A DNA stretch of 64,000 nt, from the NCBI GenBank assembly GCA_003152315.1, contig PLZV01000025.1, positions 1-64,000 on the forward strand, written 5' to 3'. Positions within the stretch are counted from its first letter, which is position 1. Each line of letters opens with the position of its first letter. The notes below the pieces were generated by a model that searched no databases, had not been told where the DNA came from, and saw only the letters and a list, made by a program, of their open reading frames with translations. The position numbers and the translations under genes are program-made. Positions 45,752-58,088 of this stretch are shown piece by piece. This stretch comes from Verrucomicrobiota bacterium (GTDB taxonomy: Bacteria > Verrucomicrobiota > Verrucomicrobiia > Palsa-1439).

Positions 45752-47011
45752 ATGTTCACGATTACGCTGCTTCTCGAACTGCTCGCACTGGGAGGACTCC
45801 TGGTTCTGTCGGCATTTTTTTCGGGGACCGAGATCGCCCTGTTCTCGCTCAGCAAACTGCAACTCCGCCGCTTGCGCCAGGAACATCCGGCCCAGGGCCA
45901 GATTATCAGCGAGCTTCTCGACCAGCCGCATCGATTGCTCTCGACCATTCTCTTCGGCAACACCGTCGCCAACGTCGGCGCCGCCATCCTCGGTTACTCG
46001 ATCTTGCAGACGCTCGTCCCGCGACATGCGGAGGCGGTCGCCGTGCCGGTGATGACCGTGGTGATTCTTCTTTGCGGCGAGGTCACACCGAAGACCCTGG
46101 TCATTCGCAGCGCCGAGTTCTTCGCCGTCCATCTCGCGCGGCCCATCCGTTGGACGGTCGTCTCAACCTCCCAACTCCGCCGCACGACCGAGGGGGTGTC
46201 CGCGTGGATCGTCCAGCGTATCGAGCGGTTGCCTTACTTTTCAGCGCAGAAGGTGCGCTCTGCTGCGCCGACGGAAGACGAGTACCGCACATTGCTCAGC
46301 GCCAGCGAGCGCGCCGGGGTTGTTCGCAAGGAAGAACGCTATATGGTCAACAAAATCCTCGCGCTGGAAAAAATGCAGGTGAAGGAAATCATGACTCCGC
46401 GTGTGGACATGCAGTGTGTTGAGGATATGCTCCAACCTGACGAGATGGCCGTGGCCTTGCGCCGCATCAAACACCGCCGTGTGCCCATCATCCATGAAAC
46501 GCCCGACACCGTCGAGGGGATCCTCAAGGTCAAAGACTTCCTGGTCAATCCGCGGCGCGAGCTCGACGAAGTCGTGGAGTTGCCGAATTTTGTCCCCGAA
46601 ACGATGTCCGTTGCGAAGCTGTTGAAGAACTTTCGCAAACAGGAGCATCCCGTGGCCATTGTGGTCGACGAGTACGGTGGCACGCAAGGGATGGTCACAC
46701 TGGAAGATGTTCTCGAGGAGATCGTCGGCGAGATTGAAGACGAATTCGACAAGAGCGAGATCATGGTGCAGAAGCTCGACGAGCGCCGCTACCTCATCAA
46801 CGGCAAGGCGCGGCTGGAACTCGTCAACGAGCAGTGCGGACTGGTGCTGCAAGCGCCTGACGTCGAGACCATCGCTGGCTGGGTGATCGCGCAACTCGGG
46901 GCATTGCCAAAGGAGGGCGAACAAGTGTCTGTCGAGAACGTTCGCGCCACCGCCCGCAAAGTCCTGAAGAATCGCGTCGGCGAAGTCTTGTTGGAGGTCG
47001 AGGGACGCTGA
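45752..47011 (+). CDS. CNNM/CBS-domain transporter-like protein (HlyC/CorC family)
   Basis: GTEIALFSLSKLQLRRL, VKEIMTPRVDMQCVE, AIVVDEYGGTQGMVTLEDVLEEIVGEIEDEFD. Confidence 0.92.
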   Translation: MFTITLLLELLALGGLLVLSAFFSGTEIALFSLSKLQLRRLRQEHPAQGQIISELLDQPHRLLSTILFGNTVANVGAAILGYSILQTLVPRHAEAVAVPVMTVVILLCGEVTPKTLVIRSAEFFAVHLARPIRWTVVSTSQLRRTTEGVSAWIVQRIERLPYFSAQKVRSAAPTEDEYRTLLSASERAGVVRKEERYMVNKILALEKMQVKEIMTPRVDMQCVEDMLQPDEMAVALRRIKHRRVPIIHETPDTVEGILKVKDFLVNPRRELDEVVELPNFVPETMSVAKLLKNFRKQEHPVAIVVDEYGGTQGMVTLEDVLEEIVGEIEDEFDKSEIMVQKLDERRYLINGKARLELVNEQCGLVLQAPDVETIAGWVIAQLGALPKEGEQVSVENVRATARKVLKNRVGEVLLEVEGR

Positions 47012-47012
47012 C

Positions 47013-47996
47013 ATGGGCGCTTTCAACTATCTCGTGATCATGGTCGTGGGCATCTTGGGCTCGGCGTTCTTTGCGGGCGCGGAAACGGGGCTGATTTCCC
47101 TAAACCGTGTCCGCCTGCGCCACGAGGTCGAGCGCAAGAGCCGCCGCGCGATCATCCTGAACGGGTTCGTCGAAAACACCGAACGCTTGCTGGGCACGAC
47201 ACTGTTCGGTACCAACCTCGCCAACGTGATGGTCGGTGTCTACGCCTCGGTGCTCGCGACGCGCCTTTTTAACATCGATAACTTCTGGCTCGACTTCGCC
47301 GCGACGATCGTCGCCTCGGCATTCCTGCTGGTGATCGGTGAAATTGTCCCCAAAACGCTCTTTCGCCATTATTCGCACCGTCTCTGCATGACCATTGCCG
47401 ACGCGCTGAACGCGACGGCGTGGCTGTTTGCCCCGCTCGTGGCCCTGCTCGGGTTTGTGATGCGCGCGGTCGTTCGTCTTAGCGGCGGCGCCGAGGCGCC
47501 GAAAAGTTTCTTTGTCACTCGCGAGGAATTGAAACACCTCGCCAAGGAGGGGGAAGCGGGCGGCGCACTCAGCGCGGAGGAACGCAAGATGATTGACGGC
47601 GTTTTCGATTTCCCCTACAAGACGGTCTACGACATTATGTTGCCGCTCGCGCGGGCCGTTACGGTCGTGCGCGATACGCCGGTGAAGAATCTGCTCGAGG
47701 TTTCGGAGCGCACCGGCTTCGCCCGCTTTCCCGTCGGCGAGGGTGACCGAATTGTCGGCATCGTCAACGTCTACGAGATCCTCTTTGACAATGCCGCTAG
47801 CGACGGCAAAACCGCTGGACAACTCATGCAAAAGCCGCAGTTCGTGCTCTCCACAGAGCGCGTCAACCGCGTCCTCCCCGTCCTGCGCGCCGGCCGTCGT
47901 CCCATCAGCATCGTTATTAACCCCGAAGGCAAGCACGTAGGCATCCTCACCATCGAGGACATCGTCGAAGAAATCGTCGGCGAGGTGGAGGGGTGA
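47013..47996 (+). CDS. CNNM/CBS-domain transporter-like protein, second copy
   Basis: FFAGAETGLISLNRVRLRHEVE, VYDIMLPLARAVTV, HVGILTIEDIVEEIVGEVEG. Confidence 0.9.
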   Translation: MGAFNYLVIMVVGILGSAFFAGAETGLISLNRVRLRHEVERKSRRAIILNGFVENTERLLGTTLFGTNLANVMVGVYASVLATRLFNIDNFWLDFAATIVASAFLLVIGEIVPKTLFRHYSHRLCMTIADALNATAWLFAPLVALLGFVMRAVVRLSGGAEAPKSFFVTREELKHLAKEGEAGGALSAEERKMIDGVFDFPYKTVYDIMLPLARAVTVVRDTPVKNLLEVSERTGFARFPVGEGDRIVGIVNVYEILFDNAASDGKTAGQLMQKPQFVLSTERVNRVLPVLRAGRRPISIVINPEGKHVGILTIEDIVEEIVGEVEG

Positions 47997-51261: not shown

Positions 51262-51534
51262 ATGAGTGAAGTAACGCAGAACATCGGTTGGGCCGTGGTC
51301 TTCTCGTTTGTTGGTGGGGTCGTAGGCATCGTACTGGTGCTGGCTTCTTCACTGGTGCTGCCGCGACTGATCGAGCGCATGACGCCGAACATCGACGAAG
51401 AAAAGGAAATTGCGCGCGGCAACCTGGCCGTGGCGCAGTACTTCGGACGGATTGCGGCGGCGAGCATCATCGGCATGAGCATTGTCGTGGGCGCAGCCGT
51501 CCTCGCTGGCGTCATCGCCGCATTGCACGGATAA
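51262..51534 (+). CDS. DUF350-like small membrane protein
   Basis: 90 aa; LIERMTPNIDEEKEIARGNLAVAQYFGRIAAASIIGMSIVVGAAV. Confidence 0.65.
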   Translation: MSEVTQNIGWAVVFSFVGGVVGIVLVLASSLVLPRLIERMTPNIDEEKEIARGNLAVAQYFGRIAAASIIGMSIVVGAAVLAGVIAALHG

Positions 51535-51558: not shown

Positions 51559-53694
51559 ATGAAAACCCTCACGTCTATTGCATTAGCCTTGTGCTTTGCT
51601 GCTGCCCCGGTTTGGGCGCGTGGCGGCGGCGGGTGTTTCGAGGAAGGCACGCCGATCCTCACTCCCAACGGTGAAGTTCCCATCGAACAACTGCGCGTCG
51701 GTGACGTTGTGATTGGTGGACGGGTGGAGGCGATTATCTGTGTCGAGCCCGAGGAGTATCTCGATGTTGGCAACGGCGTCCGCGTCACGGCCGAGCATCC
51801 TTTTCAAATCTCGCCCGGGGTCTTCCGGGTGGCTGATCGGGTGTTCCCGACTGCGCCGCGAGTCCGCGCACAGCATCCTGCGTACAATCTGCTCGTCAGC
51901 CCGAGTGGTACCTATATCGCGGGTGGCTTTGTCGTCCATAACAAAGGCTGCTTTCTGCCGGACACACCGATATTGCGCGCGGACGACACCGAAGTGCCGA
52001 TTCATGAGATTCGCACGGGCGACAAACTGCTTGCGTTCACGGCTGATGGGCAAGTCGTCCGTACCAGTGTGCGCAACATCGTGACCCACGAAGTGGACGA
52101 GTATCTCGAAGTGGCGACGGAACGCGCCGTCTTGCGTGTCACGGTGGAACATCCATTTTATGTGGGCGAGGGGACATTCAAGACACTTGAGGCACTCAAT
52201 GTTGGCGACAGCGTGTACGCTTACGACGGACACGGCCTGAGCGCCCAACAAATCGTAAGCATTGTGCACGTGCACGCGCGTACCCATGTTTACAATTTGC
52301 AGACCGACGCGCCGAACACTTTTTTCGCGAATGGCGTGGCCGTCCATAATAAAGGTGGTGGGGGAGGCGGGGGCGGATTTGGCGGTGGGGGATTTGGTTT
52401 TCATTCCGGTTCCGGAGGAGGTTCGGGTAGTGCGCCGACCGTCTTTCTCATTGTCGTGGGCGTTTTCGTGGTGATCGTGCTCATTCAGCACTTCAATCAA
52501 GGGGGTGACGATCAAGGGGGTGAGGATGATAACCTCGATTTCGTGAACAGCCCGAGCGCGGTTGCGCAAAAAGCCACGAAGACGAGCAAGTTGCTGGAGT
52601 TCATTGCGAAGGTCGATCCGTCTTTCAAGGAGGAGGCCCTCCAACAACGGGCAACGGAGACGTTTATGGAGTTGCAGAAATGCTGGCAAGCCCGCGAGTA
52701 CGGACCCATGCAGGCACTGTTGATGCCGGATTTATATACCGCACACTGTGCGCAATTGCAGGGATTACGCCGCGATCATGAGATCAACATGATTGAGAAT
52801 CTACGGGTCGAGCACGTGGATATTGTAAATGTACGCTACACGCACGAGGAGAATGAGTGCGAGTTCACGGCGTTAATCACAGCGCATGCGCGGGATTATT
52901 ACGTGGATGATCGTGACAGTCATATCCTGCGCGGGGACGAGGCATCGGCGCAGTTTCAGGAGTTTTGGACATTTCAGCGGCAGGATGGTGCGTGGCTGTT
53001 GCGTGAGATTGAGCAGACGCGTGAGTCGGACAAGCTGAAGGAGGAGAATTTCTTCGAGCAGTTCACGGACAAGGGGGTTGAGCAGGTGTATGGCAAGGCG
53101 GCAGGCCAGGAAGGCCCCGCGGGTCCATGGCTGGAAAAGTCGGTGGAAACAAAGGCCACCCGCATCGAACGGTTGTTGAACTTCCTGGCGCAGACGGACA
53201 AGCTTTGGGACCGGCAGGCGATGCTGGAGCGGGCGCGACAGGTTTTCACGGATGTTATGCTGGCGCGGGAAGCGGGCGATCCGACGGCGGTAAAGGATGA
53301 TGAGCTATTTCCCGCAGCGGGAGTGGATTTGCGCCAGCAAATCACCAAACAGCGGACCGCCGGGCCGAGCATCGAGTATCGCAACTTGTGCGTCCGAAAG
53401 GCGGAACTCATTCTCGTGCGCAACTTCGCGGACAATTCACACGACGAATATACCGTACGGATTAGCGCGCACGCGCAAAAAATCATCAAGCGGGGTGGGG
53501 TGGCTATCAGTCAGGACGAATTCGTCACACCGTTCATGGAATACTGGACGTTTGGGCGACTCGATGGTCAGTGGAAGCTTAAGGAAGTGCTGCCACCATC
53601 GCGGGGTGAAGAAGCCGTCCGCCAGGAGAATCTTGATGAGGACAGCAACGCCGCGCAGCTTCAATGGTACTACCAGCAAAGCCGCGCGACGTGA
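51559..53694 (+). CDS. Secreted/membrane protein: two tandem Hint (intein-like) domains + Gly-rich linker + TM + two Tim44-like domains
   Basis: CFEEGTPILTPNGEVPIEQLRVGDVV...VTAEHPF...GGFVVHN|KG then CFLPDTPILRADDTEVPIHEIRTGDKLL...VTVEHPF...GVAVHN|KG; GGGGFGGGGFGF; TM VFLIVVGVFVVIVLI; two Tim44-like segments. Confidence 0.88.
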   Translation: MKTLTSIALALCFAAAPVWARGGGGCFEEGTPILTPNGEVPIEQLRVGDVVIGGRVEAIICVEPEEYLDVGNGVRVTAEHPFQISPGVFRVADRVFPTAPRVRAQHPAYNLLVSPSGTYIAGGFVVHNKGCFLPDTPILRADDTEVPIHEIRTGDKLLAFTADGQVVRTSVRNIVTHEVDEYLEVATERAVLRVTVEHPFYVGEGTFKTLEALNVGDSVYAYDGHGLSAQQIVSIVHVHARTHVYNLQTDAPNTFFANGVAVHNKGGGGGGGGFGGGGFGFHSGSGGGSGSAPTVFLIVVGVFVVIVLIQHFNQGGDDQGGEDDNLDFVNSPSAVAQKATKTSKLLEFIAKVDPSFKEEALQQRATETFMELQKCWQAREYGPMQALLMPDLYTAHCAQLQGLRRDHEINMIENLRVEHVDIVNVRYTHEENECEFTALITAHARDYYVDDRDSHILRGDEASAQFQEFWTFQRQDGAWLLREIEQTRESDKLKEENFFEQFTDKGVEQVYGKAAGQEGPAGPWLEKSVETKATRIERLLNFLAQTDKLWDRQAMLERARQVFTDVMLAREAGDPTAVKDDELFPAAGVDLRQQITKQRTAGPSIEYRNLCVRKAELILVRNFADNSHDEYTVRISAHAQKIIKRGGVAISQDEFVTPFMEYWTFGRLDGQWKLKEVLPPSRGEEAVRQENLDEDSNAAQLQWYYQQSRAT

Positions 53695-57029: not shown

Positions 57030-57530
57030 ATGAAACAGTCATCTGGTGGCAAAGTAACAAATCTCGGTCAGGCCCTTCGGTCGCGCAGTGGACAATCACT
57101 CATCGAATTTGCCCTGGTGGCCCCGCTGTTTTTCCTTCTCGTTTTCGGTATCACGGATTTTGGACGGCTATTCTTTACGCAGGAGACCCTGCAATTTGCG
57201 TTGCGGGAAGCGGGCCGGTACGCCGTGACAGGCCAGCACAAGCCCGATCTGAAGAACGGGGGCAATCTTTCACGGGTGGCCTCAATCAAGGCAATCGCCC
57301 AACAAAATGCGATCGGCATGATCACCGACCCGAACAGCATCGTCGTTAGTAGCGGTGGCGTGAACAACTTTGCGGGGGGGCCCGGTGATACCGTTCTCGT
57401 ATCCTTGACGACGAACCTGAAGCTGATCACTCCCATGATCGGGAGATTTTTCGGGCCGAGCCAGACCTACACGTTTACCGTCCAGACGACATTTCGAAAC
57501 GAGCCGTTCGACTTCAGCCAGACGAACTAG
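57030..57530 (+). CDS. TadE-like pilus assembly protein
   Basis: SGQSLIEFALVAPLFFLLVFGITDFGRLFFTQETL. Confidence 0.9.
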   Translation: MKQSSGGKVTNLGQALRSRSGQSLIEFALVAPLFFLLVFGITDFGRLFFTQETLQFALREAGRYAVTGQHKPDLKNGGNLSRVASIKAIAQQNAIGMITDPNSIVVSSGGVNNFAGGPGDTVLVSLTTNLKLITPMIGRFFGPSQTYTFTVQTTFRNEPFDFSQTN

Positions 57531-57539
57531 GAGGCAACG

Positions 57540-58088
57540 ATGAATTCCCTGCGCAACTGGGTATCGAGAAGTCGGGAGCAATCCGGCCAGGCATTGATCG
57601 AATTCATGTTCGTTGCCTTTATCTTGCTCTTTATGCTGTTCGGCATGATTGATTTCTGCCGCGCGATTTCCACCCGCCAGGTGCTGATCAACCTGTCACG
57701 CGAAGGGGCCAACCTGGCGGCGCGCGGAACTGGAGATACCCCCAACGCAGTGATCTCAAACGCGATTTCCGCCGTGATCGCCGGGGCCGCTCCCCTCAAC
57801 ATGGCCACCAACGGGCTGGTGATCATCACGGCGGTGTTCAATAACAATGGCGCTTACGTGGTCACCAACCAGGTCATCGAGGGAGGGCTCTCCAACTCGG
57901 TCAGCAAGGTCGCCCCGAATGGCCTTGGGAGCACGCCCAATATGCCCGCCACGGCGGTGCCGATTCCCCAATCGAACCAGACCATGTTCGTGAGTGAAGT
58001 GTTCTACAGCTACAAACCGGCGACCCCGATTGGCAAACTGTTGAACTTCAATATGACCAACGCGCTTTACGATGCGGCGTTTTTTTAG
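57540..58088 (+). CDS. TadE-like pilus assembly protein
   Basis: SGQALIEFMFVAFILLFMLFGMIDFCRAISTRQVLINLSREGANLAARG. Confidence 0.9.
   Translation: MNSLRNWVSRSREQSGQALIEFMFVAFILLFMLFGMIDFCRAISTRQVLINLSREGANLAARGTGDTPNAVISNAISAVIAGAAPLNMATNGLVIITAVFNNNGAYVVTNQVIEGGLSNSVSKVAPNGLGSTPNMPATAVPIPQSNQTMFVSEVFYSYKPATPIGKLLNFNMTNALYDAAFF

Follow-up and report, generated by a model that had tools for sequence, protein, structure and literature searches.

Bacterial intein-like (BIL) domains, a branch of the Hint superfamily, are mostly known as variable one-offs whose benefit is unclear. Thioester formation at their first cysteine (Cys1) and cyclisation of their terminal asparagine are established BIL and intein chemistry. 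BILs without a nucleophile at the residue following the domain (+1) cleave, and some of them also splice (PMC5874633, PMC7664689); A-type BILs are among those able to splice without it (PMC5874633). In Tetrahymena, BIL2, in which an RGG motif precedes Cys1, has been reported to splice with formation of an isopeptide bond between a lysine epsilon-amine and a C-terminus (PMC8616854, PMC9200820). Here we describe bacterial Tim44-like proteins that carry tandem Hint domains, each followed almost without exception by lysine.

Organization of the locus

The window, that is, the whole stretch of 64,000 nucleotides analyzed here, contains an ORF at 51559-53694 (forward strand, as for its parts and for the adjacent 90-aa gene described below) encoding a protein of 711 aa, with the order MKTLTSIALALCFAAAPVWA-RGGGG-Hint alpha-KG-Hint beta-KGGGGGGGGFGGGGFGF...-TM-Tim44-Tim44. 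The signal peptide (residues 1-20, 51559-51618), read from the sequence, is predicted to be cleaved between VWA and RGGGG, and the family pattern before the first Hint is likewise Ala or Gly followed by RGGGG. RGGGG itself (residues 21-25, 51619-51633) is invariant in 45/45 aligned alpha-beta proteins and would represent the entire N-extein once the signal peptide is removed. Hint alpha (C26-N128, 103 aa, 51634-51942) and Hint beta (C131-N264, 134 aa, 51949-52350) are separated by a Lys-Gly linker (51943-51948) that provides the Lys+1 of Hint alpha, so that both blocks sit between VWA-RGGGG and KGGGGGGGGFGGGGFGF. The Lys+1 of Hint beta (K265) opens a Gly-rich segment (residues 265-291, 52351-52431), which is followed by a single transmembrane (TM) segment (about residues 292-309, 52432-52485, hydropathy 2.86) and by two Tim44-like domains at 52594-53016 (PF04280, E 1e-19) and 53188-53586 (E 1.1e-7). 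Across these two stretches the Tim44 profile scored 95.3 bits against a Pfam cut-off of 29.6 (E 4.9e-27); the score for the NCBIfam model Tim44_TimA_adap (NF033779), 61.8 bits, was under its curated cut-off of 80. When the window's own genome was searched by family, this was the single gene combining Hint and Tim44.

Positive-inside statistics for 69 proteins revealed a charge bias around the TM segment, with 3.4 Lys/Arg after it versus 1.6 before it (48 proteins versus 13). Taken with the signal peptide, these charges indicate that the Hints are to be expected on the outer side of the membrane and the Tim44 domains on the inner side.

A gene for a small membrane protein of 90 aa (51262-51534), itself about 60 bases downstream of a trpE-like gene, ends 24 bases before the start of the 711-aa ORF. 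This protein resembles a half-length DUF350, its Pfam match (2.3e-5) falling slightly under the cut-off and those of its homologues (3.1e-7 and 6e-7) over it. In 70 of the 80 related loci a homologue of this gene adjoins the Tim44 gene, upstream in nearly all, and most of the ten loci without such a neighbour begin at a contig end. LemA (PF04011, E 4e-58) lies directly upstream of the DUF350-like gene in about 17 loci, mostly deltaproteobacterial; the row LemA, DUF350-like, Hint-Tim44 was observed in L013, L028, L030-L032, L035, L037, L045, L052, L053, L055-L059 and L067. Elsewhere in the window we noted two successive membrane proteins resembling the CNNM/CBS type (HlyC/CorC-like, 45752-47996) and two neighbouring ORFs resembling TadE/TadG-type pilus proteins (GQSLIEFALVAP... 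and GQALIEFMFVAF..., 57030-58088).

Identity and fold of the Hint domains

A sequence-only reading of this DNA had proposed tandem Hint/intein-like domains inserted in the Gly-rich segment ahead of a membrane anchor and two Tim44 domains. The ORF and its Pfam matches agree with that layout, and profiles, AlphaFold and Foldseek all identified the two blocks as Hint or BIL. Not among the points of that reading were the near-constant Lys+1, the DUF350-like neighbouring gene, the range of one to four Hint copies and the wide occurrence of the family. Hint alpha carries the motifs CFEEGTPIL...TAEHPF...VVHN before KG, and Hint beta CFLPDTPIL...TVEHPF...AVHN before KG. Pfam retrieved Hint_2 (1.5e-12), PT-HINT (7e-11) and Hint (1.6e-9) on the 711-aa protein, the NCBIfam models intein_Nterm and intein_Cterm were both over their cut-offs, and the solved sequences closest to the blocks were the BIL domains 2lwy and 6tmm/6y75 (Tetrahymena BIL2). 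Structure prediction, which the same reading had suggested as a check, yielded a Hint fold for residues 21-266 when modelled with 45 natural sequences (pLDDT 90.6, pTM 0.82). The top Foldseek matches to this model were BIL2 (6y75, E 8e-11) and inteins, with a target-normalised TM of 0.85 for 2lwy. Hint alpha modelled alone (pLDDT 93.2, pTM 0.84) matched 6y75, 2lwy (query TM 0.77) and the Vint domain 8r2c (2.2 A), and the matches of the two models together spanned BIL, intein, hedgehog and Vint structures. Based on these AlphaFold models and Foldseek matches, both blocks are assigned to the Hint superfamily.

The domains themselves are of a known kind, the A-type BIL, sharing Cys1, the block-B TxxH and the C-terminal HisAsn and having no Cys, Ser or Thr at +1 (Lys in 151 and Met in 1 of 152). 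Hint alpha of the window is 29 aa shorter than most of its relatives (103 versus 132 aa) and keeps every catalytic motif (Cys1, TAEH, VHN). Block-F His is absent from Hint alpha. The shortening in the window's genus corresponds to the loss of two short stretches; other shortened alphas, of 113 aa, were seen in L015 and L033.

Three other identities were considered and rejected. A canonical (class 1) intein does not fit a lysine at +1 or insertion in a variable Gly-rich segment. The protein has no toxin domain, as a polymorphic toxin would, and a Gly-rich run, a TM segment and two Tim44 domains come after its Hints. A mobile element was discounted given the lack of a homing endonuclease and the conserved order of the Hints. 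Searches of plasmids and phages found unrelated Hints only.

Distribution and history of the family

A scan of GTDB genomes retrieved 255 stretches coding for relatives, the best 80 of which were analyzed as loci. The shared architecture is signal peptide-(R)GGGG-(Cys...HisAsn-Lys-Gly)n-Gly-rich-TM-Tim44x2, with n ranging from 1 to 4. It is kept in L002, of the same genus, at 86% and in L003, from a different family of the class, at 61%, and recurs at dozens of loci spanning about a dozen phyla, so that chance does not account for it. Among these best 80 of 255 are Verrucomicrobia, Lentisphaerae, Kiritimatiellaeota, Planctomycetes, Deltaproteobacteria/Desulfobacterota, Myxococcota, Nitrospirae, Elusimicrobia, Riflebacteria, Sumerlaeota, Auribacterota and Legionella; many loci are metagenome bins, so that single placements may be wrong, and Legionella includes named strains. 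Among sampled genomes the family is sparse, occurring in at least about 7 of the 388 from the window's phylum and at least 5 of the 45 from Legionella, figures that are lower bounds because the fast first look used for them found the window's Hint once and missed it once. Legionella species (L022, L042, L049 and L063) have family members with two or three Hints and, as a distinct protein, an ordinary Tim44 of about 300 aa. In L035 and L055, four Hints (alpha, beta, gamma, gamma) follow one another in one protein. We found this architecture undescribed in the open papers searched for Tim44 together with Hint, intein or DUF350; within that literature, we found no precedent for the array, its host and partner, its spread across phyla and, most notably, the Lys+1 rule.

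Phylogenetic analysis placed 46/46 alpha Hints in one clade (support 0.98), 59/61 beta Hints in a second (0.80) and 44/45 gamma Hints in a third (0.90), with control Hints outside those of the family (0.77). A recent duplication of a single Hint was rejected, as alpha, beta and gamma are separate lineages. Since they form separate clades and sister proteins differ in Hint number, the array is, on the evidence of the tree, the product of old duplications followed by gain and loss of members.

That deletion of the Hints would restore a Gly-rich Tim44-like protein, as the earlier reading had also suggested, has a natural counterpart: a search for homologues with differing Hint numbers, which that reading had proposed, turned up relatives with 1-4 Hints and with none. 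A Hint-less pair from Elusimicrobia (L082 and L084) is nested among one-Hint relatives and retains the rest of the gene and its partner, which is most simply read as natural loss of the Hint. Within the phylum, more distant Tim44 proteins without a Hint have the order signal peptide-A, then RAGGGG...-TM-Tim44. Because these Hint-less relatives show the R-Gly-rich site empty, the insertion site is, by this comparison, the Gly-rich run directly after the signal peptide, in line with the guess of the sequence-only reading. In a genome of the same genus (G001) the gene was absent after trpE, on a contig that ends 480 bases further.

Conserved residues and the lysine at +1

The motif set comprised 152 complete Hints from 73 proteins; L036, L051, L061, L080 and further loci that are cut or frameshifted have no complete Hints and were excluded from the counts. 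Cys1, the block-B His of TxxH and the terminal HisAsn are present in 152/152 Hints, a set whose selection demanded Cys and HN, yet no uncut, unsplit domain call lacked either; the block-B Thr is conserved at 95-100%. The flanks are almost as strict. The residue at -1 is Gly in 150/152 (one Ser, one unknown), at +1 Lys in 151/152 (one Met) and at +2 Gly in 152/152. Lys+1 occupies 79/79 internal junctions and 72/73 last junctions. Over positions +2 to +20 beyond the last junction, Lys accounts for 0.5% of residues. In control Hints from other proteins of the window's phylum and of Legionella's phylum, Lys+1 was found in about 2 of 25, the other +1 residues being D, Q, G, C, N, S, A, V or T. The sole two control Hints with Lys+1 (L104 and L199, without Tim44) lie in frames that both end within a few residues. 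The one Met at +1 (L071, a single junction reading VVHN then MGG) offers a naturally occurring test of the Lys+1 idea. The 152 Hints share ancestry and their counts are not independent, yet the three lineages are widely diverged and have kept the lysine.

The constraint on Lys+1 looks chemical, since the residue is also fixed at internal junctions, where an excised dipeptide would be discarded. Its presence at every internal junction favours a chemical role and not just one in shaping the final N-terminus.

Proposed mechanism and alternative explanations

It is very probable that the Hints carry out autocatalysis of some kind. The autoprocessing proposed by the sequence-only reading gains support from the strict Cys1, TxxH and HN in 152 domains. 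Its 'release at the cell surface' would be limited to N-terminal fragments if, as predicted, the Hints are outside and the Tim44 domains inside. More specifically, we tentatively favour self-removal of the Hint array with joining through Lys+1, to which we give somewhat less than an even chance. In this mechanism, the signal peptide would export the protein, placing the Hint array on the outer and the Tim44 pair on the inner side of the membrane, and each Hint would act as an A-type BIL-like autoprocessing domain. Cys1, aided by the block-B Thr/His, would convert the preceding Gly-Cys bond to a Gly-thioester, the terminal His-Asn would cyclise and cut the Asn-Lys bond, and we infer that the amine of Lys+1 (the alpha-amine after cleavage, or the side-chain epsilon-amine) would accept the Gly acyl group. 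The Hints would then leave and the short Gly blocks be joined via lysines (RGGGG-KG-KGGGG...), giving as end product a Gly-rich tether resembling that of the Hint-less relatives. The retention of Lys+1 while the three Hint lineages diverged supports such joining, as does the plain Gly-rich tether of relatives with an empty site. Shortened and without block-F His, Hint alpha of the window could be slower or limited to cleavage.

The main rival, cleavage without ligation, seems rather unlikely to us but deserves to be set out. The last Hint would cut between Asn and Lys, freeing the Hints and creating a new Lys-GGGG N-terminus on the membrane-bound Tim44 protein, with the array serving as a delay or maturation switch. 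Such an N-terminus would mimic the Arg-(Ala)-GGGG left by signal peptidase in Hint-less relatives, and Lys+1 could be kept instead for a basic N-terminus after cleavage. Lysine is no canonical +1 nucleophile, and characterised BILs usually cleave instead of splicing (PMC7664689), which also counts against joining. However, cleavage by itself leaves unexplained both the fixation of Lys+1 at 79/79 internal junctions and the invariance of Cys1 and TxxH, which are needed just for the N-terminal reaction. That the Hints have lost their reactivity and are kept as structural or binding domains is highly improbable: the shortened alpha of the window's genus would suit this explanation, but Cys1, the block-B His and HisAsn are fully invariant in 152 domains across about a dozen phyla.

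The Gly-thioesters might alternatively be passed to amines of other molecules such as proteins or peptidoglycan, which would fix RGGGG to them or tie the protein to the envelope. The BIL2 precedent (reported to dispense ubiquitin-like domains), the RGG-Cys1 motif, the invariant RGGGG and the conserved membrane partner all speak for such a transfer platform, but after signal peptide removal the donor would be just a five-residue peptide, and we regard this as improbable. Compatible with either splicing or cleavage, and quite unlikely in our view, is the possibility that the Hints are selfish or neutral, intein-like insertions tolerated by a Gly-rich loop without benefit to the host. The sporadic distribution noted above, changes in copy number and clean loss would be expected of such insertions, but there is neither room for nor trace of a homing endonuclease, the order of alpha, beta and gamma is preserved, and these lineages accompany the host gene and its DUF350-like partner.

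A widespread bacterial class of Hints, in which Lys+1 is the acyl acceptor and Gly-Lys bonds (possibly epsilon-isopeptide) form without Cys/Ser/Thr, ATP or another enzyme, and whose tandem arrays build, on the outer side of the membrane, a Gly-Lys tether that is branched or spliced, would parallel in bacteria the chemistry reported for Tetrahymena BIL2; we consider this reading unlikely. A Lys+1 ligating Hint, if true, would be a useful tool for protein engineering. With a conserved partner gene, a fixed site, arrays that can be counted and relatives whose site is naturally empty, this host protein makes the putative benefit of a BIL directly testable, as well as whether lysine can act as a +1 acceptor.

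Comparison with known systems

Like the A-type BILs, for example that of C. thermocellum (2lwy), the Hints of this family have the fold, Cys1, TxxH, a block F of YN(L/F) and the terminal HisAsn, have no Cys/Ser/Thr at +1 and are inserted in a non-conserved region. They differ in the near-invariant Lys+1 followed by Gly, in the near-invariant Gly at -1 and in forming tandem arrays of 1-4 at one site in one protein family. PT-HINT (PF07591) of polymorphic toxins resembles Hint beta in a profile score over the cut-off and a HisAsn end; in contrast, Tim44 domains and a TM segment, not a toxin, follow the family Hints, and control PT-HINTs are variable at +1. The host proteins are similar to bacterial Tim44-like/TimA-type proteins in their Tim44 domains, signal peptide or TM segment and Gly/Ser-rich segment, and in the Hint-less members of that group analyzed here the Hint site is empty. 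BIL2 of Tetrahymena BUBL1 (6y75, 6tmm) is the best solved fold match and shares the (R)GG before Cys1. Its reported acyl acceptor is a lysine in the downstream ubiquitin-like domain, whereas the candidate here is Lys+1, and it is eukaryotic, zinc-controlled and flanked by ubiquitin-like domains instead of Gly-rich segments. The family has the RGG-like motif and a Lys+1 that would suit a lysine-conjugating BIL of the BUBL type, and the corresponding reaction is putative.
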